From positions 1-64,000 of the forward strand of contig NZ_LMMA01000035.1 in NCBI RefSeq assembly GCF_001422725.1: a DNA stretch of 64,000 nucleotides, read 5' to 3'. The position numbers and the translations under genes were made by a program. The DNA is from Flavobacterium sp. Leaf82. GTDB lineage: Bacteria > Bacteroidota > Bacteroidia > Flavobacteriales > Flavobacteriaceae. Of this stretch, positions 9,812-31,839 are shown one piece after another; within the stretch, counting starts at the first letter, position 1; each line of letters begins with the position of its first letter. The notes beneath the pieces were generated by a model that was not told where the DNA came from, did not search any database, and saw only the letters and a program-made list of their open reading frames with translations.

Positions 9812-9897
9812 GAATGAAAATCAGACTATACTTTTTAAGCCTTTTGAGATTTTCAGCTAATAGTAGTACCTTAGCTAAACACAAGAAATCCCAATCA

Positions 9898-11334
9898 ATG
9901 GAACCGCATCACTATATCAGACTCTCAGCGCTTAATGACATGATCCATGATACGATCAGTGCACGTTTTGCCTCGCAGCGTTTCTGGGTACTGGCCGATA
10001 TCACCAATCATTCCTATAAGGCAGATAAAAAGATCCATTATTTTGAGCTGGTCGAGAAAGCGCAGAACGGCAATGCGATAACAGCCAAGATGATGGGCAA
10101 ATCATGGGGAGGGGGAGCCGTTCGTATTGAGGAATTTGAAAAAAATACAGGACAGACCTTTACCAACAACCTGCATGTTCTTGTACAGGTGAGTGTGGAT
10201 TATCACCCCTTATACGGTTTGTCTGTGAGCGTTCTGGATATCGACAGCAATTTTATGCTGGGTATCTTAGAGCAGCAGCGAAATGCCACCCTTGAGCGTC
10301 TGGTAAAGGAAAATGATTATATCCAGAAAGTGGGGGATGGTTACTCGACGTTTAACAGCCGGCTTAAACTTCCGGCAGTAATTCAGAGAGTGGCTGTAAT
10401 TTCTTCGAGCAGTTCTGCAGGGAATGAAGATTTTCGCCACACGATGCAGCATAATGATTTTGGGTATGTTTTCCAGATAGATGATTATTATACCGTTGTG
10501 CAGGGAGATAACAACGCCAAACTATTCTTAAATAAGCTCATTGAAATCTATAGTACTGGAATACCATATGACGCTGTTGTCATTAACAGGGGAGGGGGCT
10601 CACAGTCTGATTTTCTTATTTTTGACAACTATAATATCGGAAGGGCAGTGGCCAAGTTTCCCATTCCGGTCATAACCGGTATAGGACACCAGAAAAATGT
10701 CAGCATAACCGACCTGATGGCCCATACCCATACCAAAACACCAACCAAGGCGGCAGAGTTTATTATTGCCCATAACCGAAGTTTTGAGCAGCATATTCTA
10801 TCGTTACAGCAAAATATTTTAATAAAATCACAGCAGCTTTTTCATGGCTATTACAAGGAACTAAACGAAATCAAAAATGCCGTTTCCCGTAATGTTAAGG
10901 AACTTGTGCAACTGCACGGAGAAGAGCTGACGCGAACCAACCAGCGAATTATCAGCAGTTCAAGAGCTGTTTTGTATGGACATCAAAAAAGGCTCATTTT
11001 AACTGCACATCAAGTGGTACAGAGTCCCAAATTGCTGTTCCAGCAGAGGAAAAATGATATAGTACATATAAAAAACACTATAAGGAATTCTACAAACGAG
11101 TATCTTCGCCGGGAGAAACTTACGCTGGAACACCACCAGAAAAGTATCACGATGATGTCCCCTCAGAATATCCTTCGCAAAGGATACGCGATTGTGAAAG
11201 TCAATCAAAAAATCATCAGCAATGCCAAGAATATAGAAGCCGGGCAGGAGATAGAAGTAATACTTAAAGACGCAAAACTAAAAAGCACCGTTAAAGAAAA
11301 AATACAATACGATGGAAGAGAAACTGACCTATGA
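9898..11334 (+). CDS. xseA: Exodeoxyribonuclease VII large subunit
   Basis: About 478 residues from the ATG at 9898. An in-frame upstream ATG at 9814 would add 28 residues (SLLRFSANSS) unlike the family, so the start before EPHHYIRLSALND is preferred. Features are the N-terminal OB fold that coordinates ssDNA (RFWVLADITNHSYK), the catalytic domain with AVIHRGGG-like VVINRGGGSQSD, PVITGIGHQKN, and THTKTPTKAAEFI, then a long coiled coil and the C-terminal ILRKGYAIV. ExoVII degrades single-stranded DNA into oligonucleotides. It overlaps xseB by 23 bases. Carriage on the element suggests handling of single strands during transfer. Confidence 0.93.
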   Translation: MEPHHYIRLSALNDMIHDTISARFASQRFWVLADITNHSYKADKKIHYFELVEKAQNGNAITAKMMGKSWGGGAVRIEEFEKNTGQTFTNNLHVLVQVSVDYHPLYGLSVSVLDIDSNFMLGILEQQRNATLERLVKENDYIQKVGDGYSTFNSRLKLPAVIQRVAVISSSSSAGNEDFRHTMQHNDFGYVFQIDDYYTVVQGDNNAKLFLNKLIEIYSTGIPYDAVVINRGGGSQSDFLIFDNYNIGRAVAKFPIPVITGIGHQKNVSITDLMAHTHTKTPTKAAEFIIAHNRSFEQHILSLQQNILIKSQQLFHGYYKELNEIKNAVSRNVKELVQLHGEELTRTNQRIISSSRAVLYGHQKRLILTAHQVVQSPKLLFQQRKNDIVHIKNTIRNSTNEYLRREKLTLEHHQKSITMMSPQNILRKGYAIVKVNQKIISNAKNIEAGQEIEVILKDAKLKSTVKEKIQYDGRETDL

Positions 11335-17530: not shown

Positions 17531-19522
17531 TTAAGAATTTTGTTTTTTAATTACTAAATGAACTAAAGCCGGATCATTCAGAAGGCGTTCCATTTCAGAA
17601 TTTACCAGTTCACTTATATCCTGTTTTACCTGCATGTAATTTCTCTGTATCATGGAATTGTCAATTTTGCGGACAGGAGCAATATCCTGATAAGAATCCT
17701 GTTCTTTTTTAAGAGCATGATGATCATTTATTATATCGCAGTGCAATGCTTTAAGCTCAATTCTGCAGTTCGGGTCATCAGCCACAATGCCGACAAATTC
17801 ACCTGAACTTAAGGTTGAAATTTTGGATGCCGGGACGGCTGATTCCAGTTGTTTTGATCTGCTGATAGACGTGTCTGAACTGTTAATGGACAGACTTTCC
17901 CTGTCCTGCATTATTTTTCCAAAACGCTCGGATAACTGCTTTGCTGTATCTCCGGTGACCTGGCCGCTAATAATATTTCCGGTGATGTTAAGTATTACAT
18001 CTGCCTGTTCACGTCCGTAATCTTTACGAAGCTGGCTGAAGTCCTGGATTCCAAGACAAGTACTAACTTTATTGCTTCTTGCCGTAGCAATCAGGCTGTC
18101 CATATTGTTTAGATAGATGGTTGGAAATTCATCAAAAATAAGACTGCTTTTAAGTTTGCCTTTCTGGTTGACCTGTTTGATAAGTCTGCTGACAAATAAA
18201 GACAGTACCGCTCCGTAGGTTTGGACCTTCTGAGGGTTGTTTCCCATACATACTATTTTAGGCTCCAGCGGGTTATTAATATCAAGTGTAAAATCATTTC
18301 CAGACAGTACATAATAAAGCTGTGCAGAGGAAAGTCTTGCCATGGAAATTTTGGCAGAAGCGATTTGTCCCTCCAATTGCTCCATAACGTCCTGTAAATA
18401 AGCGCTGACAAAAGGATTGATAAGGACCTCGATCTCTTTTTCGGTTCTCAGCAGTGTAAAAAGACTGTCATAATCGGTCTGCATCAGCTCAATTACATGA
18501 GGCAAAGTGCAGAATTCGCCGTCGTTACATTTTCTTAGATACCAGATTACGGCAGTTAGAAAATTGATAGGGGATTCCACAAAAAAGTCTCCCTGTTTTT
18601 TTATCCACTCCCTATTGAGTCCAAGGAGAATTGTGCGAGCAGATTCAGCTGCATCGGTTATATCAATCATGGATTTTGGATCAAGAGGATTACAGCGATG
18701 AGAGCGGTTCAGATCGTCAAAATTGATAATATAAAATTTCGGCTCAACTGCATACAAATGCTTGTATTTCTTCCATGTATTCCATGCAATAAGTGTCAAA
18801 TCATCAAACTTAAAATCATAAATAAACATACTGAACTTTTTGCGTATATGCTGGGTTATGATATGGCGGATGACAAAATAGGATTTACCAGAACCAGGTG
18901 TCCCTGCCACTAAAATGCCCCTGAAAGGATTTATGATATTAACCCAGCTTTTTCTAAGTTTGTTTTTTAAGTAATACTGCGCTGGCAGGTTAACTGAATA
19001 TTCATTTTCAAGGAGTCTCTCTTCCTGTGGAAAAGTTTCATTTTCCTTATTAAAAATATCATTGGAATTCAGCTTGCGGTAAATTAGTCTTGAGAGCAGT
19101 GTGCCCCCTCTTAAAATAAAAAGATAACCGGTGCAGACTAGTGTCGCATACACCAGCATTTTGGTATCAATTTCCAAATTCAATATAAAAATAAACCTTG
19201 ATGCGAAGTATATAAAAAGCCCAATAAAGATAAAACCTAATGCCGTTTTATGATTGAGTTTTTCATTTTTCCTCCCTTTTGCACCCAGAAGGGAAATGAG
19301 CAAAAGCCCGAGTGCCAACAGTTTTGATTTACTGAAAGTTTTGAATAATCCAGTATGATATATATTAGACAGAATATTGTTCGTAAGACTGCTTACCAAA
19401 TCCCATTTTTTAAACGCTTCATATCCGTAATAATAAAAATGGATTCCTAAAATGCAAAGGCTCATCAGCCTTGTCATATCCAAAATTTTTCTAAGTGCCT
19501 GTTCATTTTCTCCCGTCTGCAT
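17531..19522 (-). CDS. Type IV coupling protein (TraD/MobC-type) with YWFCY-like N terminus
   Basis: A 663-residue inner-membrane ATPase. The N-terminal 140 residues hold several membrane segments (LCILGIHFYYYGYEAF, LLALGLLLISLLG, FIFIGLFIYFASRFIFIL, VYATLVCTGYLFIL), matching the YWFCY domain of Bacteroidota coupling proteins. Walker A is GTPGSGKS (207-214); Walker B is SLIFDEFPTIY. It links the relaxase-DNA complex to the secretion channel. It lies downstream of the relaxase by 18 bases, in the usual order mobA-mobB-mobC. Confidence 0.92.
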   Translation of the reverse strand: MQTGENEQALRKILDMTRLMSLCILGIHFYYYGYEAFKKWDLVSSLTNNILSNIYHTGLFKTFSKSKLLALGLLLISLLGAKGRKNEKLNHKTALGFIFIGLFIYFASRFIFILNLEIDTKMLVYATLVCTGYLFILRGGTLLSRLIYRKLNSNDIFNKENETFPQEERLLENEYSVNLPAQYYLKNKLRKSWVNIINPFRGILVAGTPGSGKSYFVIRHIITQHIRKKFSMFIYDFKFDDLTLIAWNTWKKYKHLYAVEPKFYIINFDDLNRSHRCNPLDPKSMIDITDAAESARTILLGLNREWIKKQGDFFVESPINFLTAVIWYLRKCNDGEFCTLPHVIELMQTDYDSLFTLLRTEKEIEVLINPFVSAYLQDVMEQLEGQIASAKISMARLSSAQLYYVLSGNDFTLDINNPLEPKIVCMGNNPQKVQTYGAVLSLFVSRLIKQVNQKGKLKSSLIFDEFPTIYLNNMDSLIATARSNKVSTCLGIQDFSQLRKDYGREQADVILNITGNIISGQVTGDTAKQLSERFGKIMQDRESLSINSSDTSISRSKQLESAVPASKISTLSSGEFVGIVADDPNCRIELKALHCDIINDHHALKKEQDSYQDIAPVRKIDNSMIQRNYMQVKQDISELVNSEMERLLNDPALVHLVIKKQNS

Positions 19523-19540
19523 AGTTAGATTTTTTTAATG

Positions 19541-20809
19541 TTACTGATTATCTGACTGACCTTTTCTTTTTCGTTTTTTGCGTTTGCTTTTTAATTCTTT
19601 CGGAATATATTCACCATTATATTCCGGCGATATAATACTGTCAATTATTTTCTGTACCTGCTCTGCCGAAATAAATGATATGGCATTTTTAGTACTTTGA
19701 AATTCGTTGTGCTCTGAATTGTTTAAAGCCTTATTCTCTGATTTTATGACTACATCTTCGCATCTTTCCTGTATTGCTTTTGCCGCATATGAGATACCCA
19801 GCGTGCTCCCGTTAAAAATGCATTTTGAAGTGTGATCTATATAGGTGATGCCATATAACAGACCTTCAGTATTTTTTCTCATAACCATATTAATGCCTTC
19901 ACTTCTTAGAATCTTATCGAGCTTTTCCAGAGATATTTTTTTGTTTTTTAGAAATGCAAAATCAATACAGTTTTTAATTCTTTTCATATGAGGCAAGCGC
20001 ATTTTTTTATTTGCCTCAAATCTTAATTCGAGATTTTTCAAAGTTGGTTTCAAGTAGAAACTGCTTGCTTTAATTGGTACTCCGACTGGTCTTTTCTGCT
20101 CATCCAGAATTTGATACATGAGTCCTTTATGCTGATACATTTTGGATCCCTCTAAACCCCGCTCAGCCGAAATGTTATATAAATTCAAAACTGCATTAAG
20201 CTCTCCAATTGTGGTGAATTTATAGTTCGGAATTACATAATTTAAAACTTCCGAAATTGCTTTTTTGGAATCTGAATCTCCGTACCGTATCTTTTGAATG
20301 GCAGATGTTATCTGCTTTGCATCATTACTTATCTTTTTGCTTTCTGCAGGAATTAAATTGAAATCTTTTTCAATTTCCCGACGTGCATTCTCAGACTGAT
20401 TCTTTCCGATATTCTGCATGTCAATTCTTTTCCCATCAGACTTTACTTTTATACTGACAATATGGATGTGCGGGTGACCTGCGTCATAATGCCTGTAAAC
20501 CAAATAAGGCTGGAAACCAAAACCAATTTTTTGCATATAAACCTGTGCGATTTCAATGAGTTTTTCATTGGTTAATTCTTTTTCAGACCGATCAAAATTA
20601 AGTGAGATGTGTACACTATTCCGTGTCACATTTTTGTTTAATTCCAATTGTTTTAGAAGCGTTTTTAATTTTGCATCCAAAGTCAAACGAGCCAGATCTA
20701 TTGGATAGTTTCTTTCACCGATACACTCTGCTTTTCCAAGACTGACTTTATTTTCATTATAGTTGAAAATACTTCTTATGGAATGTCCTGTATTTATGAC
20801 TGCAACCAT
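19541..20809 (-). CDS. mobB: Relaxase/mobilization nuclease (MobB)
   Basis: A 422-residue relaxase. The metal-binding three-histidine motif is at 107-118 (HYDAGHPHIHIV), with a likely catalytic tyrosine in the N-terminal region (for example Tyr17 in FNYNEN). The enzyme nicks one strand at oriT, stays linked to the 5' end and pilots it into the recipient. The lysine-rich end (KRKKRKRK) fits DNA binding. The gene overlaps mobA by 16 bases and precedes the coupling protein. The putative oriT lies just upstream of mobA. Confidence 0.93.
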   Translation of the reverse strand: MVAVINTGHSIRSIFNYNENKVSLGKAECIGERNYPIDLARLTLDAKLKTLLKQLELNKNVTRNSVHISLNFDRSEKELTNEKLIEIAQVYMQKIGFGFQPYLVYRHYDAGHPHIHIVSIKVKSDGKRIDMQNIGKNQSENARREIEKDFNLIPAESKKISNDAKQITSAIQKIRYGDSDSKKAISEVLNYVIPNYKFTTIGELNAVLNLYNISAERGLEGSKMYQHKGLMYQILDEQKRPVGVPIKASSFYLKPTLKNLELRFEANKKMRLPHMKRIKNCIDFAFLKNKKISLEKLDKILRSEGINMVMRKNTEGLLYGITYIDHTSKCIFNGSTLGISYAAKAIQERCEDVVIKSENKALNNSEHNEFQSTKNAISFISAEQVQKIIDSIISPEYNGEYIPKELKSKRKKRKRKGQSDNQ

Positions 20810-21186
20810 TTTTCAAAGAATATCTGCATTTGTTTTTTGATCTCGTTTATCGAATTAAACAAGATTTTTTTCTCTAGTTCAAAGGTTAAAATCCATTGTT
20901 TAAATTCGGGAATCTGATTTAAGGTATGTAGTTTTTTTACAGCCTGATTAAAGTTGTTTCCAATTGGATTTAATTGATTTTTTAGCATAATCAGCTGTGC
21001 CATTAAATCATCAAGCGATTCATTTCGGTACTTCAAAACAACCGGCTCATGCAACAGGTTTTTCCGCGCAAAATCACTGAGTCTTGGACAGGTGGATTTT
21101 TTAAAACGATTTTGTATTAGTTCAAATTCCCCGTCTGTTAATCTTAGATGAATCCACTTTGTTCTGTTTGTTTTCTGCTCTTTCAT
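20794..21186 (-). CDS. mobA: Relaxosome accessory protein (MobA/MobC-like, ribbon-helix-helix)
   Basis: A 130-residue basic protein. The N-terminal part (KWIHLRLTDGEFELIQNRF, then RLSDFARKNLL) is the ribbon-helix-helix seen in plasmid and ICE mobilization accessory proteins, and the middle has LKNQLNPIGNNFNQAVKKL, typical of MobC-type proteins. It would bind oriT and help the relaxase. It is the first gene of the mob operon and reads away from the hairpin cluster at 21233-21345. Confidence 0.9.
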   Translation of the reverse strand: MKEQKTNRTKWIHLRLTDGEFELIQNRFKKSTCPRLSDFARKNLLHEPVVLKYRNESLDDLMAQLIMLKNQLNPIGNNFNQAVKKLHTLNQIPEFKQWILTFELEKKILFNSINEIKKQMQIFFEKWLQS

Positions 21187-21481: not shown

Positions 21482-21763
21482 ATGAGTACAAAGAATTATG
21501 CAGCCAAGGTGTTCGATACTGTATTGAGCATCCCGGGCATGAGTGAGCCAGTGAAGATTGATCTAAAAATTTCACGCAAAAATGTACTGCTGTTATGCCA
21601 CTTTATCGACAGGGGAGTGTTGCTTGAAAAAGATGAAGGAAGTCTTATGGGTAGCATAGCAGAGGAGGAACTACTCGAACTGAAAAATGTTTCACAAGAA
21701 TGTCTTCAGAAGGCTGGACTTGTGGAACTCAATCAAAAGCTTTTGACTTTTATAGGAGATTGA
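21482..21763 (+). CDS. Small hypothetical protein
   Basis: A 93-residue soluble, acidic protein with no motif I can name. It reads AAKVFDTVLSIPGMSEPVKI, then LKISRKNVLLLCHFIDRGV, and a Leu-rich helical end. It is oriented away from the oriT and mob genes and ends with its own terminator. It may belong to the mobilisation region or begin the cargo; nothing in the sequence decides this. Confidence 0.65.
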   Translation: MSTKNYAAKVFDTVLSIPGMSEPVKIDLKISRKNVLLLCHFIDRGVLLEKDEGSLMGSIAEEELLELKNVSQECLQKAGLVELNQKLLTFIGD

Positions 21764-21833: not shown

Positions 21834-21980
21834 ATTGCATTCTATCCGAAAGTAAATTGGTATGGTTTTGATACTTTTTGGTTTGTTTTTGATGTTTTTT
21901 CTTTCAATTTAAGGTTTTAATTTTGTGTATGCTTTTTAAGAATGGTTTTTTAGCTTATAAAATAATTAATATTCAATATT

Positions 21981-23522
21981 ATGAACATTCGTCCTCATAT
22001 AAGAAATCTTATTATTGAAATCATCTGTCTTCTATTTGTACTGTTATTCGTTTATGCAGCAACAAGTAAACTAATGGATTTTCAAAAGTTCAAAATTGAG
22101 TTGGGTCAATCTCCCCTTTTGAGTGCGTTTGCAGAATGGTTTGCTGTTCTTGTTCCCACAGTTGAATTTATTATATGTACGTTGTTAATTATACCAAAGT
22201 TTAGGATTATTGGGCTGATTTCTGCTTATGGATTAATGGTAATGTTTACGGCCTATATTTTTATTATTTTAAATTATACATCGTTTGTTCCCTGTTCCTG
22301 CGGAGGAGTTTTGGAAAAACTAGACTGGAAATCACACATGATTTTTAATCTGGTATTTGTTTTTCTAGGTTTTTTAGGAATTCTGCTTTACAATCGAAGT
22401 ACTAAAATGAATAGTTCTTTAATGAAAAATAAAAGCTTGGTTGTCATTTTATCTACCGTAACAATAAGTGGTATTGGGATAGTATCGACATTGTTTATGC
22501 TTTCTGAAAATATTGTACATTATCATAATAGACTTATCAGACGCTTTCCCCAGCATCCGATACTAAAGACAATTGATCTGGATCTTAAAATGAATTCGTA
22601 TTACATTGCCGGACTAGACAATTCTCATATTTACTTAGGAAATTATTCAGCTCAGCTATCAATGATGGTTTTGGATTCCAAGCTGGTACAGACCAAGGAA
22701 AAGATGATAGATATAGATCGAAAAGACATTCCTTTCAGAGGTGTGAAAATTTTGGTGCAGCCTCCATACTTTTTTGTAGTGGATGGAACAGTACCATGTA
22801 TTTTCAGAGGCCAGGTGTACGATTGGAAAGCCAGGATGATTCATCAAGGAGGAGAATATTTTGGAAATGCCCTAGCAATTGATTCTAGTAAAATAGCTGT
22901 TAGTACCACTAGTAAATTAAACGGTGATACAGTCTTGGGACTTATAGAAATGGGGGAAACGAACAAAACCATTTTAAATCCTGACATACTGCAAAAACAG
23001 GTGGACGGAGTCTTTGATACTGACGGACAGCTGGCATACAGTTCCCATATGAAAAATATCATTTATCTGTATACTTATCGTAATGAGTTTACGCTGGCGA
23101 ATACTGAATTAAAAATCAACTACAGAGGAAATACGCTTGATACTATTTCAAAGGCACAATTACAAATTGCAAAGGATAAAAAACGCCATCAGAGAACTTT
23201 TGCAGCACCTCCATTGTATGTCAATAAAAGTAGTGCGGTTTATAATAATCTGCTGTTTGTAAATTCAGCTATCCCAGGAAAATATGAAGATGATCGGGTG
23301 TGGAAATCGGCCAGCATAATTGATATTTATGATCTTGAAAAAAGAAGTTATGTTTTAAGCTTTTATGTTTATAATATCAATGGAAAAAAAATGAAAAGTT
23401 TTGCGGTACAAAATGACAAATTGTATGTACTGCTGGGTGATTATATTATCCAGTATCATTTGGACTCTCAAATCACTTCCAACTATAATAATTCAGTTAC
23501 AAACAATCTATTGGCCAAATAG
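21981..23522 (+). CDS. MauE/DoxX-like redox membrane protein with large C-terminal domain
   Basis: A 513-residue protein. The first 150 residues form a four-helix MauE/DoxX-type membrane domain with the redox pair in PCSCGG (about 104-109), the mark of proteins that support disulfide chemistry. Another membrane segment (about 154-175, VVILSTVTISGIGIVSTLF) leads to a soluble domain of about 330 residues rich in repeated YVLLGDYII-like strands, probably a beta-propeller outside the inner membrane. A candidate -7 box (TAATTTTG, 21918-21925) precedes it. It is followed by a small Cys-rich DUF6520 protein, its likely substrate or partner. Confidence 0.75.
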   Translation: MNIRPHIRNLIIEIICLLFVLLFVYAATSKLMDFQKFKIELGQSPLLSAFAEWFAVLVPTVEFIICTLLIIPKFRIIGLISAYGLMVMFTAYIFIILNYTSFVPCSCGGVLEKLDWKSHMIFNLVFVFLGFLGILLYNRSTKMNSSLMKNKSLVVILSTVTISGIGIVSTLFMLSENIVHYHNRLIRRFPQHPILKTIDLDLKMNSYYIAGLDNSHIYLGNYSAQLSMMVLDSKLVQTKEKMIDIDRKDIPFRGVKILVQPPYFFVVDGTVPCIFRGQVYDWKARMIHQGGEYFGNALAIDSSKIAVSTTSKLNGDTVLGLIEMGETNKTILNPDILQKQVDGVFDTDGQLAYSSHMKNIIYLYTYRNEFTLANTELKINYRGNTLDTISKAQLQIAKDKKRHQRTFAAPPLYVNKSSAVYNNLLFVNSAIPGKYEDDRVWKSASIIDIYDLEKRSYVLSFYVYNINGKKMKSFAVQNDKLYVLLGDYIIQYHLDSQITSNYNNSVTNNLLAK

Positions 23523-23585
23523 CAGGAAATTGATCGAAAACCTGTAAAAAAGAGTAGATCATTAACCCTATTAATTACTATTATT

Positions 23586-23855
23586 ATGAAAACAAATGTT
23601 TTTAAAATCGTTTTGCCAATGGCAGTGGTTGCACTGGGATTGGCTGGTGCTGCCAGCACAAATATGATGGCAAAAAATAAAGCGGCTTTTGCCGTTCAAG
23701 GCTACAGACAAGTCGCGACACCAGATAAATGCGCTATTGATCAGCAGTGTTCTAATAACGGAAATTACGATTGTCTGGCGAGTGATAATTCTACCCAATT
23801 ATTTGAAAAAATAGGTAATAATTGTGATGTGCCGCTTAAGAGAAACACTCCTTAA
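23586..23855 (+). CDS. DUF6520-family small secreted cysteine-rich protein
   Basis: An 89-residue protein with an N-terminal signal (VFKIVLPMAVVALGLAGAAST) and a short mature part holding four cysteines (DKCAIDQQC, YDCLAS, NNCDVP). DUF6520 proteins occur in Flavobacteria beside MauE/DoxX proteins; their role is not known. The four cysteines could form two disulfides, which fits the redox protein encoded 63 bases upstream. A strong terminator follows. Confidence 0.75.
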   Translation: MKTNVFKIVLPMAVVALGLAGAASTNMMAKNKAAFAVQGYRQVATPDKCAIDQQCSNNGNYDCLASDNSTQLFEKIGNNCDVPLKRNTP

Positions 23856-23871
23856 GTAAATTATTTTAACT

Positions 23872-23908
23872 GATGCCGCCACCTAGATTTTACGTGGCGG
23901 CATTTTAT
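23872..23908 (+). terminator. Rho-independent terminator after the DUF6520 gene
   Basis: ATGCCGCCAC pairs with GTGGCGGCAT (arms 23873-23882 and 23894-23903), followed by TTTTATTT. It separates the plus-strand unit from the convergent S9 peptidase gene. Confidence 0.85.
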
Positions 23909-23926
23909 TTACAGTGAAGGAAATTC

Positions 23927-26539
23927 TTATCGATTTGCATTCATCCAATCCTTACGGTCTCCATTTTTCAAATAATAGTCGAACCATTCCAAAATCCGGT
24001 TGGTCAGATCTTTCCGATTTTGCTTTTGATCTAACTGATGACCTTCGCCGGGATACACCAGTAAGGTATGTTCTTTATTTAACCTTCGCAGAGCCAAATA
24101 AAATTCCATACTTTGAAAAGAATGAATGTGTCTGTCGTTTTCTCCTGTCCAACCCAGTAAAGGTGTTTTTACATTTTGTGCCAATAAAACAGGTGAGTTT
24201 TTCAAGTAACTTTCAGTATCTTCGTACAGTGATTTTCCAATCCGAAGCTGGTCTTTCTCAGCGCGGTAGAAATCGGGTCTTTTAGAAGTCCCACTCACAT
24301 ACAAATAACAGCTTACTAGATCAGTCCAGGCAGCACCAGAAACTGCGGCCGCAAAGCGATCTGTCTGGGTGATAATGAGATCGGTTTCATAGCCTCCGAA
24401 CGAATGTCCCATAATCCCAACCTTGGCGGGATCAACCATGCCCATCGTCACTACTTTATCAACAGCAGAAAGCACACTTTGCGTAACGGATTGAGCTAAA
24501 TTTCCAAATTTATACTGAATATCTGGATACAGTATAAAATAACCTTTCGCTGCGATATGATTAACGTTAAAACCATCAGGGGAGAATTCGGAAGGGTTTT
24601 CATAATCATTCAAATAGGCAAACTGTCGCTCGTAAATGTGCACTAGCAAAGGATACTTCATCCCTGCCTTGTAATCGGCAGGATAAAATAAAATTCCTTT
24701 TGTTTTAACTCCATTCACGTCATATTCGATGGGCTGGTTTTTACTCCAATAAAAATGCTTCTGCTGGACATTACTTTGTAGAATTTCCTTTTCTTTTCCG
24801 TCAAACAGCATTAGGCGTGGTGGCGACTCAAAGTTCTGCTCTAAATACAGGTAAATATCTTTGTTTTGCGCTTTAATAAGTTGATTTATTTTTTTGTTTT
24901 TCCAGACAATCTGCGACAGTCCTGTTTTAGCATTCCATCTGAATAGTCCTGAATTCCCGGTGTCCTTATTTACTGCTTCTATTATAAAACCTTTTTCCAA
25001 ATCTAGGAAACATTTTTTCGACTCTGTGTCACTGCCGTACATTGGATCGGAACTGAATTCCCTTAACCTGAATGTTATGTTCGTCTCTCTTTCCTTTGTG
25101 AGTCTTTTTGCAGTCTGCCCGTCCAACGGCATCAGCCACAGATCAAATCTGTCGTAGAGAATAACGCTTCCATTTTTAGTCCAGCCGCCAATGCCGTAGG
25201 GTTGCTTTTCGTCAGGTATATTATTGTCTTCCCTAAAAAAAGATTCGGAAATCTGATGCGTTAGATTAGTATGGGATTCTTTCTGAATATCGTATACCCA
25301 CCAGTGCCCATCCTTCACGTAACACAAGTATTTCCCATCGGGCGATCCTGCGGGCTTTTTTTCGGAGGTATATTGTTTTACAATACATTTTTTCAACCCA
25401 GATTCAAGATCAAGTATGTATAAATCATAAGGACCAAAAAGATTATTTTGGGGCTCATAAGCTGTTCGATCATAAATAAAGGCATGGCGGTAATCGGAAC
25501 TTAAAAAACCTTGTGTCAGTTCTTTGTCCTGAATGGGCAGAACTACGTTTTGTTCCACCGACCAGCTTGCCATTTTATCATAATATCGGATGTCTCCATA
25601 AGATTTCTTGTAATCAAATAAAACCCTGTCATTTGCATTCCAAATTTGCACGGCATTGGGATCAATCTGGGTTTTATCACCGCCTTTATTTTTTAGCCAG
25701 AAAATCAGGCGCGTACCATCTTTGGAAAGTATCAGACTGCTTGCCTGATTATCAGAAATAGTCATATCCGACGGAAAGCCTTTAGCGGTCGTAGGATCTA
25801 AAGCGTAAAGTTTTTTTAGTTTTATGTCGTAAGTATAAAGTAGCATGTGTTCAGCCTCATTTTTAATGAAAGCCACATGATTTTCTTTCCATGCCAGACT
25901 TATAAAAGGCGATTTACTTGCCTGTAAGATTGTTTTTTTTACAATTTTTCCTTTTAATTGAAATACCCCAATGCTACAGTTATCTGCGGATTTAGTACTG
26001 TATAAAATACCGTTTCCGGCAGGATCAAAATGCCAGTTTGTTACTTCCATTATACTATCCTTTAAGTTGCCGGAATCATCAATAATTTCAAGATTGTATT
26101 TGCCATCGGAACGCTTTAAAATAAGCACTGTGAATCGGTGGTCAGCTGAAAATCCCAGTGCTTGACCATGAGGAATTTTTCTCAGCAAGCCTGAGCGCAG
26201 GTTTTGCAGTATTAATGTATCACCGGTAATACAGCCAAATTCAAGCTCGGCATTGAATCGACCATCCCTTCCCAGCGGAAAAGCATACCTTTTGCCTGTA
26301 GTATTGTGCTGTACAAACAACGTGTCTTTCCTAGAAGGATATTGCAATAGATATTCACTCCAATTGCCATACTCTGACAAGTTTCGAGGTATCAGGTTAC
26401 TCCACAACTTATAATCTTCAGGAGTTAACAGTCGCTTTTGGTTAGCCTGTCCCAATGAAGAAGGACAGGTTACTAACCAAAACATGAAACAGGTAAACCT
26501 GATAAAAAGACTTTTATTTGACAATCTAATATCCTTCAT
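23927..26539 (-). CDS. Secreted S9-family (prolyl oligopeptidase-like) peptidase
   Basis: An 870-residue protein with a signal peptide (FTCFMFWLVTCPSSLG). Residues about 40-600 form a beta-propeller with WD40/TolB-like repeats (SPDGKYLCYVKDG, KRLTKERETNITFRLR). The C-terminal alpha/beta hydrolase holds the catalytic Ser in GIMGHSFGGYE (about 709), Asp in GENDRHIHS (about 798) and His in PGEGHQLDQ (about 831). It would cleave short peptides in the periplasm. It is co-transcribed with SusC and SusD and overlaps the SusD end by 14 bases, which suggests that imported peptides are its substrates. Confidence 0.9.
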   Translation of the reverse strand: MKDIRLSNKSLFIRFTCFMFWLVTCPSSLGQANQKRLLTPEDYKLWSNLIPRNLSEYGNWSEYLLQYPSRKDTLFVQHNTTGKRYAFPLGRDGRFNAELEFGCITGDTLILQNLRSGLLRKIPHGQALGFSADHRFTVLILKRSDGKYNLEIIDDSGNLKDSIMEVTNWHFDPAGNGILYSTKSADNCSIGVFQLKGKIVKKTILQASKSPFISLAWKENHVAFIKNEAEHMLLYTYDIKLKKLYALDPTTAKGFPSDMTISDNQASSLILSKDGTRLIFWLKNKGGDKTQIDPNAVQIWNANDRVLFDYKKSYGDIRYYDKMASWSVEQNVVLPIQDKELTQGFLSSDYRHAFIYDRTAYEPQNNLFGPYDLYILDLESGLKKCIVKQYTSEKKPAGSPDGKYLCYVKDGHWWVYDIQKESHTNLTHQISESFFREDNNIPDEKQPYGIGGWTKNGSVILYDRFDLWLMPLDGQTAKRLTKERETNITFRLREFSSDPMYGSDTESKKCFLDLEKGFIIEAVNKDTGNSGLFRWNAKTGLSQIVWKNKKINQLIKAQNKDIYLYLEQNFESPPRLMLFDGKEKEILQSNVQQKHFYWSKNQPIEYDVNGVKTKGILFYPADYKAGMKYPLLVHIYERQFAYLNDYENPSEFSPDGFNVNHIAAKGYFILYPDIQYKFGNLAQSVTQSVLSAVDKVVTMGMVDPAKVGIMGHSFGGYETDLIITQTDRFAAAVSGAAWTDLVSCYLYVSGTSKRPDFYRAEKDQLRIGKSLYEDTESYLKNSPVLLAQNVKTPLLGWTGENDRHIHSFQSMEFYLALRRLNKEHTLLVYPGEGHQLDQKQNRKDLTNRILEWFDYYLKNGDRKDWMNANR

Positions 26540-27917
26540 TTTGCGGAGAGAGATTTGGGTTTAATAGTAGCTCTGATTCGGGTAATGGCAGGAATTGATT
26601 ACTGCTTTTCCATTGCAGTTTCTGCGGAGTTAAGGTGTTATCCAGTAATCCTGCTCTTTTAAGATCGAAAAATCGATGGCCGAATTCTGTAAAAAATTCA
26701 AGTTGTCTCTCTTTTAGCACTGCATCAATAATCTGAGGTGCACTAATGGCGGTCGTATTCTGAAGTCCTGCCAAATTACGTGTTTTGTTTAGGTCTTCCT
26801 TAGCGCCGATAAGGTCTCCGGCCTGTGCACGCGCCTCAGCCCTAATAAGATATTGTTCAGCCATTCTCAATACTATGGAGTATTCCATTGAAGTGCTGGT
26901 ATTGGTGGCAAGCTTGTATTTGTAGGCATGATACCAAATGTTTGTCCCATCAGTTATACTCTTAATCCAATGTGTTTTACGCAGATCATTACTGCTAAAA
27001 TTGCTGTATAATGTAGTGCTGATCGCCATTACTGGGGGAGGAACTTGTGAAAAATTGAAAACATTCCCCTCGTAGGTATTAGTTCCATCGGTAGCAGGCA
27101 TTAATTGCCAAATGGTGGAGAGACTTTCTTTTTCAAATAAAGAATCGATCGAAGATGGCCATACGTACAGATCGGTTTGGTTCAATACAGCAGAAGCGGC
27201 GTTGGAAGCCTCTTGCCACTGTCTGAGATATAAGCAAACTCTTGCTAGAAGAGCTTGTGCTGCTCCTTTGTTTGGTCTTATCCTGTTACTTCCGTTATAG
27301 GCTGGCGGCAAAAAATCAATCGCTTTTTGTAAATCATTTTTAAGATTTTCATAAACCTGCGTTTCTGGCATTCTTTTCACAGAACCGTTAGCCCTGTAGT
27401 CAGTTGTACTGATATATGGAATTGGACCAAAAGTATTGACCAGATAAAAATGTATCAGGGCACGTACAAAAAGCGCTTCACCAGTAAGCTGCTGTTTATC
27501 AATTGCCTCTAGAGTTTTGGATAAAGCGACACCTTCCAAAACAGCGTTGGCGGCATAAATCTGACTATAGCTGCTGTTCCACCACTCCGAAATTTCCGAA
27601 TCTGACGCCAGAATTGAATTATTGTAAAAATTTGCCTGTCCGGTTCCTGATTGACCATAATAGGTTAGCTCATCAGTATACAAACCAAATTGGCTTCCAG
27701 TGCCAGTGCTTTTGCCTGTAAGAAGACCGTTTTCCCTGATTTTGGAATAAATATCGATCATGGCTGCATTGGCGGTCTCTTTAGTTTCAAATACAGCTCT
27801 GGCGGTAAGCTGTGAAGACGGCAGTTCTACTTCAGTAAAATTGTCACAGGCATATACCAGTTCCAAAAAAATAACGAACAGTAGAAATATGTTTATTTTA
27901 TATTGAGGTATTTTCAT
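26526..27917 (-). CDS. SusD/RagB-like outer-membrane lipoprotein
   Basis: About 463 residues from the ATG at 27917. The longer frame upstream runs into the SusC end, and this start gives a proper lipoprotein signal ending in LVYAC. SusD features include a helical TPR-like core (ALIHFYLVNTFGPIPY, KGAAQALLARVCLYLRQW) and the C-terminal RAEARAQAGDLIGAKEDLN and ERQLEFFTEFGHRFFDLKR. It binds ligand at the cell surface and caps the SusC channel. It sits between SusC (16 bases upstream) and the S9 peptidase (overlapping). Confidence 0.92.
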   Translation of the reverse strand: MKIPQYKINIFLLFVIFLELVYACDNFTEVELPSSQLTARAVFETKETANAAMIDIYSKIRENGLLTGKSTGTGSQFGLYTDELTYYGQSGTGQANFYNNSILASDSEISEWWNSSYSQIYAANAVLEGVALSKTLEAIDKQQLTGEALFVRALIHFYLVNTFGPIPYISTTDYRANGSVKRMPETQVYENLKNDLQKAIDFLPPAYNGSNRIRPNKGAAQALLARVCLYLRQWQEASNAASAVLNQTDLYVWPSSIDSLFEKESLSTIWQLMPATDGTNTYEGNVFNFSQVPPPVMAISTTLYSNFSSNDLRKTHWIKSITDGTNIWYHAYKYKLATNTSTSMEYSIVLRMAEQYLIRAEARAQAGDLIGAKEDLNKTRNLAGLQNTTAISAPQIIDAVLKERQLEFFTEFGHRFFDLKRAGLLDNTLTPQKLQWKSSNQFLPLPESELLLNPNLSPQNEGY

Positions 27918-27933
27918 GATAAGAGGATTAAGA

Positions 27934-30900
27934 TTAGAAAGTAAACTGTATGCTAGTACTGTAAATTCGTAGCGGTGGCAAATAGCCTGGCGTAATAAGT
28001 TCTGGATCAACTCCCTTATATTTGGTGAAGATTAACACATTCTGACCCTGCAAACTGAGTTTACAATTAAATTTTTTTGTCCAGTTTAGCGGTAGATCAT
28101 AGGAGAGGGAAATGTTTTTCAATCGAATAAAGGAAGCATCACTAATAGCAGCATCACTCTGGGAAAGTCGTGCATTGGAAGCCCTAAGAACCGGACTATT
28201 GGTGCTGTAATATTGATATGGTCCCATATCACCTGATTGTTGCCAGTGATTGGTTACGGCACTTGCCTGATTGAACATGGTACCTGGCATTGATGCTCCA
28301 AAATTTTCATTGAAATTTTCTTTTTTTACAAACTGAAATAAGAAATCCAATGTAACATTTTTGTATTTAAATTGGTTTTGAAGCCCGCCATAGTATTTTG
28401 GGTTCAGGTTTTTAATGGTTGTTTTATCATCCGCTGGTGACAATATCCCATCGCCGTTCACGTCTTCAAACGTGTAGGCTCCTGAAACTTGGTCAAGTCC
28501 CTTATAACGATATACTTTAATTATATTGGTTGGTTCACCGATGACATATTGGTTTTTATAAGTTGAGGCCTCTAGTCCGGGAAAAGACAGCAGTTTATTT
28601 TTTGCAATGCTTATATTAAAGCTGGTACTCCATGTAAAATCGTTTTGTTTTATGTTCAAGGCTCGAATTGTAAATTCCAAACCGCTATTCTGTACTTCTG
28701 CATCCAGATTCGCTTGGAGGGTGCTAAACCCAGTCGTTCCTGCTAATGGAACCCCAACAAGCTGATTGGATGATCGATTACGATACCAAGCCAAAGTGGT
28801 GAAAATGCAATCGTTTAGAAATCCGGTTTCTAGTGCCACTTCTAATTTTCGATTAGTTTCCCAGCCAAAATCAGCATTGTAAAGCCTGGTTGGTTCCATA
28901 CCCGAGATTCCCGCGTAGTTTTGACTTGAAGTACTGTAAGTATCTAGATACTGATAATCGCCAATTTGATCGTTTCCGCTGGTTCCGTAACTGGTACGCA
29001 GCTTTCCATAGCTTAAAAAAGGTAGATTTCGTTTGATGAGACTTTCATCGCTAAAAACCCATGCAGCTCCAATTGCCCCAAAGTTGGCAAATCGTTTGTC
29101 GGAGCCAAAACGGCTTGAACCATCGCGTCTACCAGTGAAATTAAAGAGATATTTACCAAGAACATTGAAATTAACTCGGGCAAAAAAGGCATTGTATCGA
29201 TATAGATTTTCATCAGATTTTAAAACAAGATAGGTTGATGCTGAAGCAGGATTTTCCATCAAGCTGTTACTGGCAAACCCTCCTGCATAGCTATTAAACT
29301 GATTTCCTTTTTGCTGTTGAAAAGTAGTTCCTGCGAATGCTTCTAATTTTACTTTTCCGATGTTTTTGTTCCATACTAACTGAGGTTCAACGATCCAAGA
29401 ACTGCGCACAAGATCATTGGAGTAAACACTTGAGTATTCGCTTCCAGCGCCATAGGAAGGATTGTAAATAGTGGATGGAGAAAGTGTCAGCTGTTTCTGG
29501 TTCAGGTTTGTATACCCAAAGCTGCTTTTAACGGTAAAACCTGTGCCCAAATCATACGAAAGTAGTGCATTGGCAAGCAGGTCATTTGTGTTCCCTTGAA
29601 TTTTCCCCTCTAGTCTGGCTAAAGGATTCTCAAAAGTATTGTTCTCCCAGTTTAAATTTCCGTTTTCATCGTATAATGATGGCGCATTGGGAGCCATGGT
29701 TAGGGCGTTTCTGGTAATGTCAACTGAAGGCAGACTACTGGATTGCAGAGTGTATGATGCGGAGATGTTGATACGGAACTTTTTATTTGCTGATTCATGG
29801 CTGACATTTAAATGTCCACCACCTTTGATGTAATCAAAATTCCCTGGGAACACGGTAGTTTCTTTGCTGTAATTCCCACTCAGCAAAAATTGCGTCTGCT
29901 CTGAACCGCCAGTTAGTGCGCATTGAATATTGGTATACGAAGCTGCACCTCCTATAAGTTCTTTTTGCCAGTTGGTGTTACGGTTTTGGTCCCATGTTCC
30001 GTTGACATCATATGCCGATGAAGGGTAATTGACTATACCATCGTTTGCGAAAGCTTCACGACGCATGTTAAGATAGGTAGGAGTTTCCATAACATCTAGA
30101 AAACGGGTGACATGACCAATACCTCCTGCGTAGGTAGTTGTAAAGCGGGTTTTACCTATTTTGCCTTTTTTAGTGGTAATCAAGACTACACCATTTGCAC
30201 CACGTGAGCCATAAATGGCGGTTGCATCAGCATCTTTTAATACTTCGATATTAGCAATGTCAGAGGGATTTATGCTGTTTAATGGGCTATTTTGTATAGG
30301 CATATTTCCTGATGTATACCTGCTTCCGATGGTCTGTGAAGAATAAGGAACTCCGTCAATAATATACAAAGGGTCATTTCCCTCTGCCCTAAGACTGTTT
30401 TGTCCGCGAACCTCTATGGTAAAACCACCTCCAGGCATCCCGGTATTCTGAATTACATTCACACCCGCCATTCTTCCCTGCATGGTTGCCACAACATTAG
30501 TGACAGGCTGTGTTTCAATATCTTTGGAGGTAATCCGGGCAATACTCCCCGTACGGTCGCGTTCCTTTACGGAATAATAACCAGCATTTACCCGGACCTC
30601 CTGTAGCGTAGTTGTATCATATTCCAGCTTAATGTCAATTTTAGTGCTGTTGTTTACTGCAATAAATTTAGTTTTGAATCCTATAAATGAGACAATCAGT
30701 GTATCCTTAGCTAAGGCATTTATTGTGTACTGTCCATTAAAGTCGCTAATGGATGAATTATTAGTTTTACCCTTTATCGAAATTGTTACGCCAGGCAGAG
30801 GATTTGAGCCATCAGTTACAGTTCCGTGTACCTGATTTTCCTGAAAAAATGTATTATACCGATCTATATTTCGGCCAAATGATGATGAAAAAGAAAAAAG

Positions 30901-30963
30901 AAAGCCTATAAATATTAGGCAATAAAATCCCTTTCCATCCTTGAAGAATGAAAAATAATTCAT
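27934..30963 (-). CDS. SusC/RagA-like TonB-linked outer-membrane transporter
   Basis: A 1009-residue protein with a signal peptide, a carboxypeptidase-D-like regulatory domain (VHGTVTDGSNPLPGVTI, about 48-120), a TonB plug (VNVIQNTGMPGGGFTIEVRG, then YIIDGVPYSS, IEVLKDADATAIYGSRGANGV) and a 22-strand barrel ending in IRIYSTSIQFTF-like beta signal. It imports ligands too large for porins using TonB energy. First gene of the SusC-SusD-S9 operon. The 492-base upstream gap contains the structured element at 31198-31307 and a perfect operator-like palindrome. Confidence 0.95.
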   Translation of the reverse strand: MNYFSFFKDGKGFYCLIFIGFLFSFSSSFGRNIDRYNTFFQENQVHGTVTDGSNPLPGVTISIKGKTNNSSISDFNGQYTINALAKDTLIVSFIGFKTKFIAVNNSTKIDIKLEYDTTTLQEVRVNAGYYSVKERDRTGSIARITSKDIETQPVTNVVATMQGRMAGVNVIQNTGMPGGGFTIEVRGQNSLRAEGNDPLYIIDGVPYSSQTIGSRYTSGNMPIQNSPLNSINPSDIANIEVLKDADATAIYGSRGANGVVLITTKKGKIGKTRFTTTYAGGIGHVTRFLDVMETPTYLNMRREAFANDGIVNYPSSAYDVNGTWDQNRNTNWQKELIGGAASYTNIQCALTGGSEQTQFLLSGNYSKETTVFPGNFDYIKGGGHLNVSHESANKKFRINISASYTLQSSSLPSVDITRNALTMAPNAPSLYDENGNLNWENNTFENPLARLEGKIQGNTNDLLANALLSYDLGTGFTVKSSFGYTNLNQKQLTLSPSTIYNPSYGAGSEYSSVYSNDLVRSSWIVEPQLVWNKNIGKVKLEAFAGTTFQQQKGNQFNSYAGGFASNSLMENPASASTYLVLKSDENLYRYNAFFARVNFNVLGKYLFNFTGRRDGSSRFGSDKRFANFGAIGAAWVFSDESLIKRNLPFLSYGKLRTSYGTSGNDQIGDYQYLDTYSTSSQNYAGISGMEPTRLYNADFGWETNRKLEVALETGFLNDCIFTTLAWYRNRSSNQLVGVPLAGTTGFSTLQANLDAEVQNSGLEFTIRALNIKQNDFTWSTSFNISIAKNKLLSFPGLEASTYKNQYVIGEPTNIIKVYRYKGLDQVSGAYTFEDVNGDGILSPADDKTTIKNLNPKYYGGLQNQFKYKNVTLDFLFQFVKKENFNENFGASMPGTMFNQASAVTNHWQQSGDMGPYQYYSTNSPVLRASNARLSQSDAAISDASFIRLKNISLSYDLPLNWTKKFNCKLSLQGQNVLIFTKYKGVDPELITPGYLPPLRIYSTSIQFTF

Positions 30964-31197
30964 AATATTGGTTTTGGTTAGTTAAATTGATTTTGATTAG
31001 CTAAGGTCCTCTTCGCTAGTTTGGTCGCTGCCGTTGAGGGCCAATTTTATGCTTAATTTTTAAGCAAATTTGATTTTAATTCACAGGCATTTTTTTTGGT
31101 TAGTATACAGTTACTAATGCGATAGAAAAATAATGAAGGATTTGCGATGAATAGGAAAGAGGAGTTAAAGTAAAAAAGGCGTAGAACTCAGCTTAAA

Positions 31198-31307
31198 CGA
31201 TTCAGAGGTACTGGTATACCTTACGCACGAATAAGTGAGCCCACGCCTATGACGTGAGCATCTTACTTATCATCTCGTGCGTTAAAAATTACCAGTTTTC
31301 TGAAACG
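31198..31307. ncRNA. Candidate structured RNA or cruciform between susC and the XRE gene
   Basis: An unusually long nested set of complementary arms: TTCAGA/TCTGAA (31201 and 31299), ACTGGTA/TACCAGT (31210 and 31290), CGCACGA/TCGTGCG (31224 and 31275), ATAAGT/ACTTAT (31231 and 31265), and CACG/CGTG near the tip. On the minus strand it lies about 235 bases upstream of susC and could be a leader RNA controlling it. A T-rich stretch (reverse of taaaaaaggc, 31171-31180) follows on that strand, so it could also be a small RNA ending there, or the palindrome of a miniature transposon. Confidence 0.5.
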
Positions 31308-31400
31308 AGATTCAAAGCGAATGCTTCAAATATTTTAATTGAAGAGTCGCAAAATTACATTTTTGAATGTATTATTTGTGACAAATATAACAAAATATTC

Positions 31401-31426
31401 TATTCGATACAAATTTGTATCGAATA
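31401..31426. promoter_or_regulatory. Perfect 26-base palindrome, probable XRE operator
   Basis: The half-site TATTCGATACAAA is followed directly by its exact reverse complement, giving a gapless 26-base dyad 30 bases before the XRE gene. This is the expected form of an autorepressor site and probably overlaps its promoter. Confidence 0.6.
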
Positions 31427-31455: not shown

Positions 31456-31839
31456 ATGGAAACAACAAGTGAAATAGAGTTAAATTTAATTAATCTGCAG
31501 ATTGGTTGTATGCTTCGATTGGGTAGATTAAAACAAAATTTTTCTCAACATACACTTGGACTCAAAATAGACTACAGTTCAACGATGATCGGAAGAGTTG
31601 AGCGTGCTGAAAGTATTAGTGGATGGGATAAGATTTATACGATAAGTCGTTACTTAAAAATAGACTTTAAATCTTTATTTGTCTTAAAAAGTTTGGAATC
31701 GCTAATAGTGATTGTTGAAGAATCGTTTAACTTAGAGGCTAAATTAACACAGGAAAAAATTGATTACTATAATATTCTAAAAAAGACTTTAAGAATTCAA
31801 TTTGATTTGCTTGAAAAGGAACGTCAGACCAATAAATAA
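31456..31839 (+). CDS. XRE-family helix-turn-helix regulator
   Basis: A 127-residue protein. Residues about 16-72 form the HTH (GCMLRLGRLKQNFSQHTLGL, then YSSTMIGRVERAES), followed by a coiled helical tail (YYNILKKTLRIQFDLLEKE). It is divergent from the SusC operon, with a perfect palindrome in its own promoter region, so it likely represses itself and may control SusC-SusD-S9. A bidirectional terminator follows. Confidence 0.8.
   Translation: METTSEIELNLINLQIGCMLRLGRLKQNFSQHTLGLKIDYSSTMIGRVERAESISGWDKIYTISRYLKIDFKSLFVLKSLESLIVIVEESFNLEAKLTQEKIDYYNILKKTLRIQFDLLEKERQTNK

Follow-up and report, generated by a model that had tools for sequence, protein, structure and literature searches.

A mobile two-operon cassette of Flavobacterium that may encode a disulfide peptide together with its SusCD receptor

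Two convergent operons and their make-up

The 64,000-nucleotide stretch of Flavobacterium sp. Leaf82 analysed here (the window; contig NZ_LMMA01000035.1, from a genome assembly of 5.67 Mb) carries, at positions 21981 to 30963, two convergent operons whose five genes may specify a disulfide peptide and its receptor. The plus-strand pair consists of the gene of a MauE-propeller fusion protein (21981..23522, 513 residues) followed by that of a DUF6520 peptide precursor (23586..23855, 89 residues), which shows, as read by eye, an N terminus like that of a signal peptide, followed by a four-cysteine core. The minus-strand operon, convergent to this pair, encodes a SusC/RagA TonB-linked outer-membrane transporter (27934..30963, 1009 residues), a SusD/RagB outer-membrane lipoprotein (26526..27917) and, in a position that turns out to be exchangeable, an S9 (prolyl oligopeptidase family) peptidase (23927..26539, 870 residues), whose start overlaps the SusD gene by 14 nt. 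An initial annotation, made from the DNA letters alone, had placed the five genes at these positions, and all of them score above the curated cut-offs of their families, being 100.5 against 27 bits for MauE (PF07291), 25.7 against 25.4 for DUF6520 (PF20130, a marginal pass), 99.8 against 22.6 for Peptidase_S9 (PF00326), 112.6 against 27 for SusD-like_3 and 713.4 against 368.25 for SusC/RagA (TIGR04056), with additional matches to SusD_RagB and TIGR04057. By adjacency and scores, SusC and SusD form a SusCD pair. In our own reading of the frames, SusD starts with the ATG at 27917 and not with the TTG at 28010, and its N terminus shows, by eye, a lipobox-like VYAC; the S9 enzyme would be secreted, judging from its signal-like N terminus.

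The redox membrane protein proposed in the initial annotation does contain a MauE domain, at about residues 1-140, but this domain does not stand alone, being fused to a further long helix and then to a beta-propeller. AlphaFold predicts about six blades for the latter, with a mean pLDDT (predicted local distance difference test) of 88.0 for the MauE-propeller protein, and a structure search finds it similar to many propellers of many functions, including Bacteroides surface lipoproteins. In some relatives the propeller is a separate gene or is absent. The PCSCGG stretch of the MauE domain, with its CxC motif, is invariant in 17 aligned rows, and the closest named relative among the best 80 of at least 596 matches is that of F. 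aquidurense DSM 18293 (81% identity).

The arrangement was followed in three partly overlapping samples, started from the MauE side, with a few genomes occurring in two collections. A family sample of 149 genomes gave 17 with a MauE-propeller match at an E value of 1e-30 or better, whose surroundings were fetched; a profile of the 17 aligned MauE sequences gave the genome-contig sample, formed by the best 80 of the matches mentioned above; and a phylum sample of 296 genomes gave 31 with a match at E 1e-20, for which 40 of 47 listed places were fetched, five of the other seven being already in the other samples and two being G364 and G127:C4. Counting only loci whose downstream DNA spans at least 7 kb (which omits 5/80, 2/28 and 0/40 loci, as well as a second MauE fragment in L091), a SusD gene convergent to MauE is found in 71/75 genome-contig, 25/26 family and 34/40 phylum loci. 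This arrangement, present in 130 of 141 MauE loci, is therefore not due to chance, and the two operons, which the initial annotation had joined as one possible system and would have given up had they lain apart in nearly all other genomes, are linked as one recurring system in these samples. Starting from S9 instead, 13 matches at E 1e-80 are found in the 149 family genomes; those of 386 bits or more, eight in number, all lie in cassettes, and the other five are weaker (272 to 301 bits) and belong to genomes without a MauE match.

The last gene of the minus-strand operon can be exchanged. Among the first 20 loci, with families typed by Pfam on representatives, the gene after SusD encodes an S9 peptidase in nine, a DUF4953 Met-zincin in four, an M16 peptidase in two and a redoxin/thioredoxin-like protein, of two kinds, in five; locus L063 has an additional DsbD_N protein. 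The presence of unrelated enzymes in one slot points to a common job, which would be the opening of the peptide by chain cutting or by disulfide reduction, and in principle all of these enzymes are able to open a disulfide peptide. In the S9 enzymes the catalytic triad is intact, with S713 and D802 in 91/91 and H834 in 90/91 aligned sequences. SusCD pairs with secreted peptidases are a common foraging set, and RagAB is thought to harvest environmental peptides. On this background, and with an intact triad, the SusCD pair and the peptidase of the cassette might collect environmental peptides as nutrients, the small peptide having a minor accessory role, for instance as chaperone, gate or inhibitor. 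We consider this unlikely, because the peptide-propeller operon stays beside the SusCD genes and co-varies with them, and because a thioredoxin-like protein, which would free no nutrient from peptides, can take the place of the peptidase.

The four-cysteine small protein of the initial annotation keeps its cysteines, as C49, C55, C63 and C80 are invariant across 75 aligned sequences (the window copy and 74 others). In 20 diverse peptides, the second and third cysteines (C2 and C3) are invariant, and the first and fourth (C1 and C4) are jointly kept in 16 and jointly lost in four, which predicts the bridges C1-C4 and C2-C3. Moreover, among 124 distinct peptides, at least four cysteines are found in 109/112 from loci with a propeller vs 0/12 from propeller-less loci (Fisher 2.9e-14, uncorrected for relatedness), the exceptions being L057, L184 and L137, the last of which ends at a contig end. 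The cysteine count thus follows the presence of the propeller, which suggests that the propeller accompanies the outer bridge (C1-C4). A released disulfide peptide could also bind a metal or another ligand, SusCD re-importing the complex and the last enzyme freeing the ligand, and such siderophore-like logic would account for a self-made peptide, a receptor and an opening enzyme. Nonetheless, no metal-acquisition gene is recognised among the cassette genes and the joint loss of C1 and C4 speaks for cysteines in pairs and against free ones, so that a binder cycle of this kind appears highly improbable.

For the mature peptide, AlphaFold gives a model with strands, with block means of 73 to 86 from residue 31. 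Neither Foldseek nor VIA returned fold relatives of this model, and a fold from the Protein Data Bank (PDB) was discarded for lack of a match. A C-terminal L-aromatic-basic motif was considered as a marker of the S9 type and left unused, as it occurs in 76/90 S9 peptides and few peptides of other classes were at hand. Some cassettes carry several copies of the peptide gene, being five in tandem in one cassette of Flavobacterium aquidurense RC62 (L129, 10530-12954) and two in each of L092, L093, L104, L105, L133 and L141.

The cassette as probable cargo of CTnDOT-like elements

The initial annotation had located these genes on an integrative and conjugative element (ICE), in agreement with the conjugation and mobilization genes present within the window. 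Outside the cassette lie genes of a coupling protein, a relaxase and a MobC-like protein (17531..21186, minus strand), and the window also holds TraG P-loop, TraJ, TraM and DUF4138 genes. Going by the type of these transfer genes (coupling protein, relaxase, MobC and Tra), the window cassette is assigned to the inside of a CTnDOT-like ICE. A Mob, TraG or RteC match occurs within the fetched stretch in 48/80, 17/28 and 18/40 loci of the genome-contig, family and phylum samples, and two of the three relaxase genes of the own genome lie less than 2 kb from its two cassettes. The region of the third relaxase was considered as an empty site and rejected, being occupied by another element. Frequent settings of the cassette are beside MobC, as in the window, or beside RteC, the latter accompanied by a PAS-AraC regulator, DUF7793 and an aminotransferase-acetyltransferase fusion; we read the cassette as cargo that would settle near transfer or regulation genes and not as a part of the transfer machine. 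No plasmid match was obtained for the DNA of 21981-26539 nor for the MauE-propeller protein and, with the RNA leader described below lacking a phage match, carriage of the cassette by plasmids or phages was set aside.

Co-inheritance was measured on 91 S9-type cassettes with model matches for propeller, peptide, SusD and SusC. Distance matrices correlate at 0.88 for propeller-SusC, 0.87 for propeller-S9 and 0.89 for SusD-SusC, and at 0.67 and 0.66 for the peptide core with S9 and SusC; in a permutation test of five pairs, among them the propeller and peptide-core ones, 0/2000 permutations reached the observed correlation. The set holds identical pairs (L107/L210 and L081/L213), taken as one genome in two collections, and a repeat with 83 cassettes gave 0.87 for propeller-SusC, 0.63 for peptide core-S9 and 0.64 for peptide core-SusC. 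As a control, the propeller was compared with genes next to the cassette, giving 0.11 for MobC (33 loci), 0.11 for TraG (31), 0.33 for the relaxase (35), 0.43 for RteC (26), 0.51 for the aminotransferase-acetyltransferase fusion (25) and 0.56 for the PAS-AraC regulator (39). This indicates that the mob side is nearly uncoupled from the cassette and the RteC side is partly coupled. The correlation of MauE with SusC is lower (0.57), although MauE and propeller are fused; the breakpoints of swaps might often fall within the fusion gene. Also, over 17 pairs, cassettes that share a genome resemble each other hardly more than random pairs do, suggesting separate arrivals. Host or ICE phylogeny as the entire cause of the co-variation was rejected on these two grounds, MobC and TraG hardly following the cassette and cassettes of one genome being unlike. 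From these comparisons, the cassette would pass between CTnDOT-like ICEs largely as a unit, and the co-inheritance of both operons fits the earlier suggestion that a peptide is made, taken up and cleaved.

The frequent presence of Mob, TraG or RteC genes near the cassette, together with the two relaxase genes beside the cassettes of the own genome, could mean that the peptide reports the density of carriers or marks them, so that the ICE times or limits its conjugation. However, the history of the cassette hardly follows that of MobC and TraG, and only weakly that of the relaxase, as expected for exchangeable cargo; many loci have no mob gene within about 10 kb, and the background rate of mob genes comes from the own genome alone. 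Signalling for transfer is accordingly given a low probability.

The divergence of the peptide core is relevant to another explanation, in which the peptide would be a narrow-spectrum bacteriocin, and SusCD and the peptidase would protect the carrier by uptake and destruction. In favor of such antagonism, the peptide is small, disulfide-containing and of many types, its core being the most divergent part of the cassette, and it is carried by a mobile element, at times in the tandem copies noted above. Moreover, in a comparison by base of 13 pairs (three more were set aside for their length difference), six, the more distant ones, have both kinds of core changes, and non-synonymous changes exceed synonymous ones in five of these six. 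On the other hand, neither an export nor an immunity gene is recognised in the cassette. All core changes are synonymous in five close pairs (1 to 3 per pair), and two pairs have no core change at all. Where the SusC distance is 0.05-0.15 (seven pairs, the closest non-trivial ones), the core, at 0.083, is no faster than the propeller (0.126), S9 (0.148) or MauE (0.159), being close to SusD and SusC. At a SusC distance of 0.15-0.3 (117 pairs) the core reaches 0.466, above all parts except S9 (0.486). For fast change of the peptide as a rule the picture is mixed, with a slower core in the closest pairs and a faster one at the larger distance, and we consider a bacteriocin rather improbable.

The R1 leader of the SusC transcript

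The bounds 21981-30963 of the initial annotation hold the five genes, but the feature extends past 30963, where an RNA leader, a palindrome and a divergent gene are found. The leader, here called R1, is a structured, pseudoknotted element of 160 nt located 5' of SusC (31170..31329, minus strand), with a competing terminator-like helix and a T-run at its 3' end. A promoter-like TAnnTTTG box (TAATTTTG) precedes it at 31350..31357 on the minus strand. Further upstream, an inverted-repeat search gives a perfect palindrome of 26 bp (31401..31426), a candidate operator, and a small divergent gene (31456..31839, plus strand) encodes 127 residues, helix-turn-helix-like by eye and without a Pfam match; an XRE-type or similar gene is divergent from SusC in 42/93 cassettes with enough flank.

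In an alignment of 76 sequences, R1 has a structure of 41 pairs including one pseudoknot helix. The paired fraction of cells is 92.9% vs 84.3 in shuffles, and 301 cells are changed on both sides vs 96 (standard deviation 9) in shuffles, with 0/500 as high and slid controls giving 28 to 99; further pair types show no excess over shuffles (212/500 as high). Helix P3 is poorly aligned (67.5% paired), and the pseudoknot helix alone has 16 cells changed on both sides vs 2.5, with only two of its five pairs changing. The window copy folds with z = -5.19. Moreover, base pairing between the 3' part of R1 and the P4-P5 strand can give a terminator-like hairpin, in which 96.3% of cells are paired vs 95.2 in shuffles, the columns being conserved, and seven pairs are changed on both sides vs 1.6; a T-run of at least five follows in 59/76 copies. 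The two states, computed without the pseudoknot, differ by 5 kcal/mol (-53.7 and -48.6).

TAnnTTTG is the -7 motif of Bacteroidota. It occurs within 60 nt 5' of R1 in 71/74 copies, mostly 27 to 31 nt away, compared with a mean of 4.3 and a maximum of 13 in mononucleotide shuffles, and in the 250 nt 3' of R1 in only 2/76. The position of the box, the structure and the terminator-like helix make R1 resemble the 5' end of the SusC transcript and an attenuator; its leader position, conserved structure and competing helix are those of riboswitch or attenuator leaders. In Rfam 15 the best score for the window stretch is 26.3 against a gathering score of 52, and none is near for L188. Judged by covariation, the structure of R1 is well supported; no Rfam family covers it, and in this, and in preceding several unrelated genes, it is unlike the known leaders. 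For the MauE gene, a box (TAATTTTG) is located at 21918..21925 on the plus strand, and such a box within 250 nt is found in 49/148 upstream stretches, a weak signal.

R1 is present in 70/114 SusC upstream stretches and, by a sequence profile, in 84/149 collected loci; a covariance model, applied to 62 sources, yielded in addition L187 and, weakly, L194 and L122. The own genome has two copies, both at cassette SusC genes. In L186 (18117-18275, minus strand), two further genes of 220 and 388 residues, which look like a sigma/anti-sigma pair, lie between R1 and SusC.

R1 also occurs outside the cassette. It is found in 35/296 phylum genomes and, among 60 listed places, 22 are by coordinates at the head of a cassette SusC operon and 38 elsewhere. 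At 37 fetched non-cassette loci no SusC is detected by the SusC model, and R1 precedes mixed genes instead, which suggests that the cassette is one of several users of this regulatory element. In L273 (1468-1625) and L274 (9256-9413), two of the three sampled genomes with a nuclease-dead Cas12f (dCas12f), it lies ahead of an operon of a sigma factor and dCas12f, at gaps of 136 and 97 nt, and the L274 protein matches PDB 9n9c at E 2.8e-160. Other copies precede response-regulator-like genes (L278 and L289 by model, L282 by eye), an extracytoplasmic function (ECF) sigma factor (L283) or uncharacterised proteins. dCas12f-sigma pairs perform RNA-guided transcription, on which no paper was found among the listed matches in open-licence PubMed Central. 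A role of R1 as a general dCas12f guide RNA was rejected, since dCas12f (E 1e-20) is present in 3/296 genomes vs 35/296 for R1, and the own genome has none. In L275, L277, L279 and L280, R1 stands before similar-looking proteins of about 175-195 residues (split in two frames in L279), the one of L277 having no Pfam match. The leader DNA gave no phage match and one plasmid match, an R1-like sequence between replication and hypothetical genes of the mobilizable plasmid pB3-10 of Rhizosphaericola mali (L301, 5001-5122).

A possible peptide-receptor cycle and its relation to known systems

Taken directly from the sequences are the conserved make-up, the co-inheritance, the pattern of cysteines and propeller, the RNA structure and the ICE setting of the window copy. 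On this basis, we tentatively favor a reading in which a private peptide and a receptor for it are encoded together in a single mobile cassette, the peptide being oxidised, exported, re-imported and opened, and which we hold to be plausible, somewhat short of probable. The plus-strand operon would make an exported peptide, which the MauE domain, through its CxC motif and together with the propeller, would oxidise or hold, forming the C2-C3 disulfide and, when the propeller is present, also C1-C4. After the peptide leaves the cell, the SusCD pair of the convergent operon would bind and import it, and the last-gene enzyme, either a peptidase (S9, Met-zincin or M16) or a thioredoxin-like reductase, would open it in the periplasm. 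R1, by competing with the terminator, would gate the expression of SusC and hence the level of receptor. As the cassette would mostly move intact from one CTnDOT-like ICE to another, carriers of the same type would share one peptide-receptor pair. A wider form of this proposal is more doubtful, although still conceivable: ICEs of Bacteroidota would maintain a polymorphic self-peptide loop, in which a disulfide peptide of the own type, a cognate SusCD pair and an opening enzyme let carriers recognise or exploit their own type alone, and the pseudoknotted RNA that switches the receptor is employed also before other genes, sigma factor-dCas12f operons among them.

Several observations weigh against the peptide-receptor reading. 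Oxidation by MauE, the bridges, secretion, re-import, cleavage, RNA switching and a signal or scavenging role are deduced steps, and the redox role of the MauE domain is deduced from a single conserved CxC. With the other genes fixed, the partial correlation of the peptide core is 0.09 with SusC and -0.11 with SusD, and these near-zero values mean that exchange of a linked block, without recognition, could explain the correlations. The cassette is coupled in part to its neighbours, the relaxase and the RteC-side genes, correlations between cassette parts and neighbours ranging from 0.11 to 0.41 for the relaxase, 0.26 to 0.48 for RteC, 0.17 to 0.62 for the aminotransferase-acetyltransferase fusion and 0.42 to 0.66 for the PAS-AraC regulator. 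Over all pairs, the peptide core has the highest mean divergence of any cassette part (0.70), which also fits a toxin or another diversifying role. The peptide model is of moderate confidence and has no fold match, and prolyl oligopeptidases may reject a peptide of about 60 residues. R1 was not found by the sequence profile in 65/149 collected loci, partly since stretches end short, and its occurrence before various genes makes it not specific to the cassette. Finally, no SusD is found near MauE in 4/75, 1/26 and 6/40 loci; in one of these, L177, the SusC and SusD genes lie farther than 7 kb away, and the peptide and an S9-like gene are retained in L095, L123 and L128.

The closest working analogy would be the set of lasso peptide, TonB receptor and isopeptidase. 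Lasso-peptide loci combine a self-made constrained peptide with a TonB-dependent receptor and an AtxE2-type isopeptidase, an S9-type enzyme, whereas the cassette has a SusD, is constrained by cysteines and contains no lasso synthetase recognised among its genes. The best NCBIfam match of the window S9 is NF033523 (AtxE2 lasso-peptide isopeptidase), but its score of 101.7 bits is well below the cut-off of 400 and membership in this family was rejected. RagAB and other SusCD peptide importers likewise have a SusC/SusD pair and a peptidase in the operon, and differ in lacking the convergent MauE-propeller-peptide operon, the exchangeable last enzyme, the RNA leader and the carriage by an ICE. In Bacteroides, NVEALA peptides occur with BF3164-like propellers, again a small secreted peptide beside a propeller, a likeness at the level of description; a search for the name NVEALA in open-licence PubMed Central found no paper.

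Methylamine dehydrogenase has a propeller subunit, so that its maturation by MauE and MauD resembles the proposed cycle also in the propeller partner, and differs in that no cofactor-bearing subunit or metabolic enzyme is recognised in the cassette. The MauE of this system has been speculated to form disulfides in a small subunit (van der Palen 1997, as cited in PMC7794033). The same source describes candidate clusters for ribosomally synthesized and post-translationally modified peptides, found in Streptomyces by decRiPPter, in which mauE lies beside a Cys-rich precursor and modification of the precursor is suggested; these precursors have at least eight cysteines, and the part of the account concerned mentions no SusCD or peptidase partner (PMC7794033).

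Among the listed matches in open-licence PubMed Central, no description of the cassette or of the R1 RNA was found. If the peptide-receptor reading is correct, a widespread ICE-linked cargo of Flavobacterium and relatives would be a peptide-receptor system instead of a locus for glycans or nutrients, the ligands of SusCD pairs would include self-made ones besides food, and the natural type-swaps would offer a ready panel for specificity. The initial annotation did not include the RNA leader, the exchange of the last enzyme or the co-variation of the parts as a unit; for R1, which precedes genes of broad regulatory interest, a ligand or protein partner is directly searchable.

Some neighbouring genes were also recorded. 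Between the MobC and MauE genes of the window, a 93-residue protein without a Pfam match is encoded at 21482-21763 (plus strand), and many MobC-side loci have open frames similar in size and place at this position. In L055 (11738-14149), an aminotransferase is fused to a GNAT/FemAB-like acetyltransferase. The gene recurs in other RteC-side loci; of the first 20 loci, 10 have it near RteC, DUF7793 and the PAS-AraC regulator, and a small ICE signal could be its product. Near the left of the window, at 9814-11334, lies a gene for the exonuclease VII large subunit, which may mark the chromosome outside the ICE.

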